This document shows, one piece after another, positions 29,545 through 30,312 of a stretch of 35,021 nucleotides of DNA (within the stretch, counting starts at the first letter, position 1; every line of letters begins with the position of its first letter). The notes beneath the pieces are model-generated. The model saw only the letters and a list, made by a program, of their open reading frames with translations, made no database searches and was not told where the DNA came from. The DNA comes from Thermoplasmata archaeon (GTDB lineage Archaea > Thermoplasmatota > Thermoplasmata > Halarchaeoplasmatales > Halarchaeoplasmataceae): NCBI GenBank assembly GCA_019594025.1, contig JAFDUB010000003.1, forward strand, positions 1-35,021, given 5' to 3'. The translations under genes and the position numbers were made by a program.

Positions 29545-29660
29545 GAGAGTTGAGTATCCCGTTGACACTTTTTCATAGTCCAAGTTATGTACGATATAAT
29601 CTAGCGGGTGTTACCAAAAATCCTTATGGATTTTTCCCTACCACGTTCAAACAAGTTGAA

Positions 29661-29735
29661 CGGGCGTGAGGGGATTCGAACCCCCGATTTACAGCTTAGG
29701 AGGCTGTCGCCATATCCAGACTTGGCCACACGCCC
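29661..29735 (-). tRNA. tRNA-Arg (anticodon CCT)
   Basis: Reverse strand folds: acceptor GGGCGTG/CACGCCC, anticodon stem ACAGC-CTCCTAA-GCTGT, T-arm GGGG-TTCGAAT-CCCC. Confidence 0.92.
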
Positions 29736-29745
29736 AGATTGTTCA

Positions 29746-29819
29746 GTGTCGGTCTAGTCTGGTTAAAGGAGGAATCCGTTATTCCTGCGCATATCCAGAC
29801 TTGGCCACACGCCCAGATT
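29746..29819 (-). ncRNA. tRNA-Arg 5'-end copy forming an extended fold-back hairpin (possible structured RNA or leader)
   Basis: 30-bp exact repeat (29711-29740 = 29790-29819) plus nested pairing GTGT/ACAC, GG/CC, AGTCTGG/CCAGACT, AGGAAT/ATTCCT (5-nt loop). Confidence 0.45.
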
Positions 29820-29843
29820 CAAATGGGCGAAAAATGATGTTAG

Positions 29844-29917
29844 TGGGCCCGACCGGATTTGAACCGGCGACCATCTGGTTATGAGCCAGACGCTCCACCT
29901 GACTAAGCTACGGGCCC
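29844..29917 (-). tRNA. tRNA with CAT anticodon (elongator Met, or Ile2)
   Basis: Reverse strand: acceptor GGGCCCG/CGGGCCC, anticodon stem CTGG-CTCATAA-CCAG, T-arm CCGG-TTCAAAT-CCGG. Confidence 0.92.
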
Positions 29918-29959: not shown

Positions 29960-30054
29960 TGGGCCGAGGCGGAATTGAACCGCCGATCTTCGCCTTTCTG
30001 ACCGTATTTACTACGGTTGTAAGGGCGACGTCATGACCCCTAGACCACCGGCCC
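29960..30054 (-). tRNA. tRNA-Val (anticodon TAC) with 22-nt anticodon-loop intron (29996-30017)
   Basis: Acceptor GGGCCGG/TCGGCCC, T-arm GGCGG-TTCAATT-CCGCC; anticodon stem TCGCC/GGCGA separated by CTTACA + 22-nt insert + A, insert contains ACCGTA-gtaaa-TACGGT. Confidence 0.9.
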
Positions 30055-30075
30055 ATGAAGGAGTGCAGCGTGTGA

Positions 30076-30126
30076 ATGGGCAGGGGTGAGTTGGAAGCTT
30101 TGCTTCCGATGGACCACCGGCCCATG
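30076..30126 (-). ncRNA. tRNA-Val 5'-end copy forming an extended fold-back hairpin (possible structured RNA or leader)
   Basis: 15-bp exact repeat (30043-30057 = 30112-30126); nested pairing ATGGGC/GCCCAT, GGTG/CACC, GGAAGC-ttt-GCTTCC. Confidence 0.45.
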
Positions 30127-30312
30127 GGAGAATAGTTACAGGCGAATAGGCGTATGTAAGTATTCAAGTATGGTGACCTTACTTTCGTGTAAGATAACAC
30201 CTGAGCGGAAATCGTCAGTGTTATGTTTTATATTTAATCCTTTTGACATGTCCGTGCACTTCTCTACAAAAAATAATTATAGGTGTCCCTGATACAGACT
30301 TGGTGCTTTTAA

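Follow-up and report, generated by a model that had tools for sequence, protein, structure and literature searches.

The window, by which we mean the whole 35,021-nt stretch of DNA that was analysed, carries genes for tRNA-Arg(cct) and tRNA-Val on the minus strand, with tRNA-Met lying between their units (Table 1). Upstream of the intact tRNA-Arg(cct) gene we observed a second, exact copy of the 30-mer CATATCCAGACTTGGCCACACGCCCAGATT, at a spacing of 79 nt from the first. By ARAGORN boundaries the 30-mer comprises 26 nt of the tRNA and 4 nt of leader; the initial annotation had placed the repeat correctly and recognised it as tRNA 5' end plus leader, but had divided it as about 25 + 5 nt. It is the longest exact direct repeat in the window, and the maximum in 20 shuffled versions of the window was 18 nt. 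The host is a Thermoplasmata archaeon; the nearest named relatives of a neighbouring gene were from Thermoplasmata MAGs (such as CSSed10_214 and B1Sed10_191R1) and Ca. Haladaptatiplasma.

Table 1. Features of the tRNA-Arg and tRNA-Val units in the window.
Feature	Position	Strand	Basis
tRNA-Arg(cct) gene, intact	29660..29736	minus	ARAGORN; Rfam RF00005, 66 bits
Proximal repeat copy: tRNA-Arg 5' end + 4-nt leader	29711..29740	minus	Repeat search
Insert, 49 nt, separating the two copies	29741..29789	minus	Absent in G002, G003
Anti arm, imperfect complement of tRNA-Arg positions about 6-22	29746..29762	minus	Fold + relatives
Inner hairpin AGGAAT-ccgtt-ATTCCT	29770..29786	minus	Fold
Upstream copy of tRNA-Arg 5' end + leader	29790..29819	minus	Repeat search + relatives
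tRNA-Met gene, between the Arg and Val units	29843..29917	minus	No end copies found
tRNA-Val gene with intron	29960..30054	minus	Rfam RF00005, 53.2 bits; ARAGORN Val(tac), 22-nt intron
tRNA-Val unit insert, 54 nt	30058..30111	minus	Fold z = −4.18
tRNA-Val insert anti arm	30078-30091	minus	Fold
tRNA-Val insert hairpin GGAAGC/GCTTCC	30093-30107	minus	Fold
Upstream copy of tRNA-Val 5' end, 15 nt, spacing 69	30112..30126	minus	Repeat search

The arms described in the initial annotation, GTGT/ACAC, GG/CC, AGTCTGG/CCAGACT, and AGGAAT/ATTCCT, were all present. The minus strand from 29819 to 29740 gave a folding energy of −24.0 kcal/mol (z = −2.27), and 5 of 200 shuffled sequences folded equally well. 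The fold-back exists, but is by itself only moderately stable. Likewise, the duplex energy of the insert with tRNA-Arg was matched by 229 of 1000 shuffled inserts; this pairing is not exceptional by itself, and its significance comes from the group of units to which it belongs. Opposite position 14, the anti arm fits the T14 form of tRNA-Arg, which occurs in other genera and one congener (G001), and not the A14 of the tRNA-Arg of the window genome. The upstream copy has A14, as its own tRNA does, so the arm is older than the copy or came from elsewhere. The earlier view that this is not a decayed tandem tRNA was supported: the duplicated 5' end is built into a real, tailored fold-back.

The tRNA-Val copy, which the initial annotation did not list, has its own fold-back (z = −4.18), and the hairpin of its insert is also present at tRNA-Val in G003. 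Past tRNA-Arg, on the minus strand at 29600-29660, a hairpin GGGAAAAATCC-ATAA-GGATTTTT resembles one past tRNA-Lys (L040) and is possibly a decayed 3' unit. At 30292-30303, immediately ahead of oxidoreductase genes, ATACAGACTTGG matched the repeated tRNA-Arg D-arm segment at 11 of 12 positions, probably by chance.

The close relatives G002, G003, and G008 lacked the unit at tRNA-Arg(cct). In G002 and G003, the tRNA-Met spacer passes directly into tRNA-Arg; at this point in the window genome come the outer copy and the unit. Five orthologous tRNA-Arg loci of another genus gave the position of a promoter-like box, which is clear only in this set and statistically weak across all tRNAs. At empty sites (L007, L009) the box stood 40–54 nt before the tRNA, and in the filled orthologues (L010, L011, L015) it stood 38–53 nt before the outer copy, with a unit of 76–144 nt intervening. 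As the box keeps the same distance to the outer copy as to the tRNA of empty sites, the outer copy marks the original tRNA start, and because this start lies behind the promoter-like box, the unit is best read as an insertion between promoter and tRNA. Presence or absence of units at the same tRNA also differed between related genomes.

The survey then covered 16 genomes of the family, with 189 distinct tRNA loci that were ranked by tRNA score and are not a random sample. Copies had to be exact and at least 12 nt long, and 5' copies were counted up to 250 nt upstream. Of the 189 loci, 33 repeated the tRNA's own 5' end upstream and none repeated it downstream; the own 3' end recurred downstream in 33 and upstream in 8, these 8 being probably neighbouring tRNAs. 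Shuffled flanks contained 0 copies of tRNA ends. The 5' copies mostly started at nt 1 and lay mostly 60–83 nt upstream, and the 3' copies ended at or near the tRNA end, mostly 80–110 nt downstream. In fresh cases the repeat takes in leader or trailer sequence, giving 30 nt in the window and up to 39 nt elsewhere. Most of these genomes are fragmented metagenome assemblies, often broken at units, and several contigs start or end inside one (L276, L282, L287, L297, L300, L301, L309, and others); units probably break metagenome assemblies.

Beside an intact tRNA, the general unit consists of a copy, hairpins, and an arm complementary to that copy. Units of the 5' type run from a copy of tRNA nt 1 to 9–26 through a hairpin (often TCGGAA..TTCCAA or GA-stem-GA), the anti arm, and a CTCGT-rich linker to the tRNA. 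In the 3' type, the tRNA and its trailer are followed by an inverted T-arm (e.g., CCGGATTTGAACC), GGTTC, a double hairpin, and RAATCC with the acceptor strand. The double hairpin is a YGA-hairpin-GAGC followed by a hairpin with a near-fixed U.G pair; put differently, the 3' unit duplicates the T-arm plus the acceptor end and has the double hairpin seated in the T-loop of this copy. The arms are tailored to their tRNAs. In 20 independent 5' units, folding with the own copy averaged −22.3 kcal/mol compared with −17.1 kcal/mol for copies from other tRNAs (Wilcoxon p = 5e-5). The advantage of the own copy in 24 3' units was smaller (p = 0.01), because T-arms are alike.

Units also occurred in tandem (L246, L140, L276, L309, and G227, the last with three units behind tRNA-Arg(tcg)); tRNA-Ala(ggc) had three units in G003 and one in G002. 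Nested units were visible on comparing L028 with L248 and L173 with L172, and the core was found in both orientations relative to tRNAs. Upstream of tRNA-Ala(cgc) in G013 (L250), at a distance of 223 nt, we observed an almost full-length pseudo-tRNA-Ala that contains insertions and seems to be a long copy that was displaced.

This generality across tRNAs led us to reject a switch specific to tRNA-Arg, which the initial annotation had suggested: units of one kind stand on either side of many different tRNAs, often as tandem arrays, and close relatives lack the unit at tRNA-Arg(cct). The annotation had named two findings that would speak against it, absence from relatives and arms varying without compensation. 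The unit is indeed absent in congeners, but across loci the arms do follow the tRNA. Its other suggestion, a scar of recombination, comes close to the insertion reading given below.

In the 3' unit, 25 pairs across 12 sequences were 92.6% paired. Compensatory changes were strong, with 28 double-change cells; shuffles gave 9.5 and slid versions no more than 8. Over 63 model matches the inner stems contained 29 G.U against 6 A.C, counted in alignments fitted to the covariance model and leaving out the fixed U.G pair, which is present in 51 sequences. The excess of G.U points to strand-specific folding, as RNA or as single-stranded DNA. A pure DNA palindrome, strand-symmetric and in keeping with equal G.U and A.C over all flanking hairpins, was overturned by the G.U excess in the defined 3' units.

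The covariance model gave more than 100 matches, in 15 of the 16 family genomes, and most of the matches examined adjoin tRNA ends or contig ends. Two multi-hairpin units were solitary, with no tRNA nearby (L305 in G000:C64 and L315 in G008:C42). Extended to the class (200 genomes) and the phylum (393 genomes), the search found matches outside the family in G024, G029, G039, G111, G225, G227, and G299, always beside a tRNA. These seven genomes belong to six other families, so that at least seven families of Thermoplasmatota carry the units. Five such genomes, with 34 tRNAs, had 5' copies at 4 tRNAs and 3' copies at 9. Among the 33 tRNAs of five genomes without a model match, there was one genuine 5' unit (L371, at tRNA-Met in G027, a complete 1.5-Mb genome from another family), and the sole 3' match was a neighbouring tRNA. 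The true distribution is wider than these matches indicate, because the model is tuned to one 3' subtype. In Rfam 15, the units matched only tRNA models and sub-threshold chance entries. Literature searches, whose coverage left out many subscription journals, gave no description of such units, and the tRNA-end fold-back repeat family is undescribed.

From these results, the feature is best explained, with a probability of roughly 0.55, as one of a set of multi-hairpin insertion elements (about 50–150 nt) that are mobile or expanding and form a family specialised on tRNA gene ends. Entry of a unit into the tRNA gene, presumably by means of an enzyme, would take place at or beside the D-loop for the 5' type and at the T-loop for the 3' type. 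The gene end outward of the entry point would be duplicated (tRNA nt 1 to about 9–26 with leader, or the last 13–19 nt with trailer), so that one intact tRNA stays and the displaced end persists as the outer copy. The complementary arm of the insert would let the displaced copy fold back on it, and this pairing may be needed for the insertion or for masking the displaced end. Recombination or slippage between direct repeats would let arrays grow and shrink and would keep the copies in step with the tRNA; later hairpin units would insert into the loops of older ones. The reading as insertion elements is favoured by the patchy occurrence of units, by sites that are empty in relatives, by units in tandem or nested, and by a core in either orientation. 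Against it, no mobilising gene emerged, Cas1 being missing in the window's genus and reverse transcriptase confined to 2 of 16 genomes; the units were seen in no circular or free form, and a few of them have no tRNA (L305, L315). Identity between copies and tRNA also persists although trailers have diverged (G029 compared with G039), which simple decay of a duplicated target would not lead one to expect, so homogenisation or selection must be invoked. The excess of G.U over A.C (29 to 6) is also predicted by RNA function.

A less probable and more far-reaching reading is that of self-addressing hairpin elements: the single-stranded arm of a small nucleic acid would pair with the end of one tRNA and so guide its own insertion into the D- or T-loop, the end being duplicated so that the host survives and the displaced end folded away. 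If true, Thermoplasmatota would harbour a class of tRNA parasites that are guided and free of genes.

The copies, anti arms, and true ends could instead be functional pre-tRNA elements, co-transcribed with the tRNA and pairing alternatively so as to regulate its processing or level, or forming a stable RNA. As the promoter-like box lies upstream of the outer copy, 5' units should belong to the pre-tRNA and to the primary transcript, and such a role would suit the conserved joints, compensatory changes, and near-fixed U.G pair as well as the copies that stay identical to the tRNA over long times. We nevertheless consider it unlikely as the main account, since units are sporadic, restricted to a minority of tRNAs, present as tandem copies, and missing or lost from congeners. 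The core also stands in either orientation, and transcription should already stop at a T-run ahead of many 3' units. An RNA role nevertheless keeps some plausibility from the persistence of the copies, the conserved joints, and the probable transcription. Template-switching scars of replication (fold-back copying and slippage) at highly transcribed tRNA genes would require no dedicated element, and inverted and direct partial copies do lie side by side, with many perfect hairpins in tRNA flanks. A core with conserved joints, shared between unrelated tRNAs and distant families, already weakens this explanation. In the window, moreover, the 30-nt copy is perfect but the anti arm is not, which means that the two were not copied together; scars of this kind seem very improbable.

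A tyrosine recombinase acting in trans, integron-like or on a satellite, is also quite improbable. The duplicated tRNA ends would then be att cores, and each unit either a minimal cassette or what is left of an element that had integrated at the D- or T-loop. Among archaeal integrases, tRNA 3' ends serve as targets, and for the pTN3-like group the 5' half does (PMC8371274); integrated elements leave partial tRNA copies (PMC9897764), and tandem cassettes are present here. However, in the 3' copy the hairpin core lies between the two T-arm halves, att sites have no counterpart of the tailored anti arm, and the 1.5-kb flanks contained no cargo-bearing version, the units being too small for a gene. 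Relatives on plasmids gave no match. A Cas1/CRISPR-type origin was rejected on finding Cas1 in 0 of 4 genomes of the window's genus and 6 of 16 of the family. A reverse-transcriptase origin was rejected in the same way, with RT in 2 of 16 family genomes; one of these only two matches is an RT domain in an 824-aa open frame (L266, G002:C153). Y1 transposases were present in 13 of 16 family genomes. The units do not fit non-autonomous IS200/IS605 (Y1) elements, which insert without target duplication: such duplications are seen here, and Y1 transposases are not known to produce them.

Genes for tRNAs are classic landing sites of mobile DNA, but in the known cases this DNA carries genes. Elements of archaeal tyrosine recombinases resemble the units in having a duplicated tRNA end as a direct repeat flanking the insert, an intact tRNA, and break points at or near tRNA loops, with both 5' and 3' use known (PMC8371274, PMC9897764). 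Cleavage by their tRNA-targeting integrases has been proposed at anticodon, D, or T loops (PMC8371274), and those integrated in Thermococcaceae are inserts of 9–23 kb (PMC9897764). In contrast, the units have tens to about 150 nt, contain neither integrase gene nor cargo, and show a fold-back arm, variable hairpins, and arrays. The mitochondrial hairpin elements RHE, DHE, and yeast GC clusters offer a precedent: they too are short, hairpin-forming, sporadic, in tandem, and merging, and target-site duplications are reported for the GC clusters (PMC2800124, PMC4478555). The units share with RHE and DHE short repeated units with stable hairpins and presence/absence variation among close relatives. 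They differ in that mitochondrial elements are dispersed in intergenic DNA with duplications of 2–3 nt (PMC2800124, PMC4478555), whereas units on the archaeal chromosome duplicate 10–39 nt of a tRNA gene, carry a tRNA-matched arm, and are not dispersed genome-wide, nearly all matches examined being at tRNA ends and two solitary. CRISPR adaptation and casposons likewise combine a short insert with target duplication and an array growing beside a fixed anchor, but the inserts here are related hairpins and not foreign DNA, in a genus without Cas1.

The gene-free hairpin units are present across the phylum and track each tRNA's own end sequence. They are natural experiments on the tolerance of essential genes to insertion and bear on which enzyme recognises folded tRNA ends, and they will confuse assembly and annotation near tRNAs in these archaea. 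They also bear on how D- and T-loop insertions, and perhaps tRNA introns, arise. Archaeal tRNA introns are likewise small structured insertions at tRNA loops (PMC4090602); units need no splicing, because the tRNA end is duplicated. In G005 (L006), a perfect hairpin, AACGCAAAC-GAT-GTTTGCGTT, is inserted in the anticodon loop of tRNA-Met and flanked by repeats, a hint that some of the tRNA introns here have the same origin as the units.
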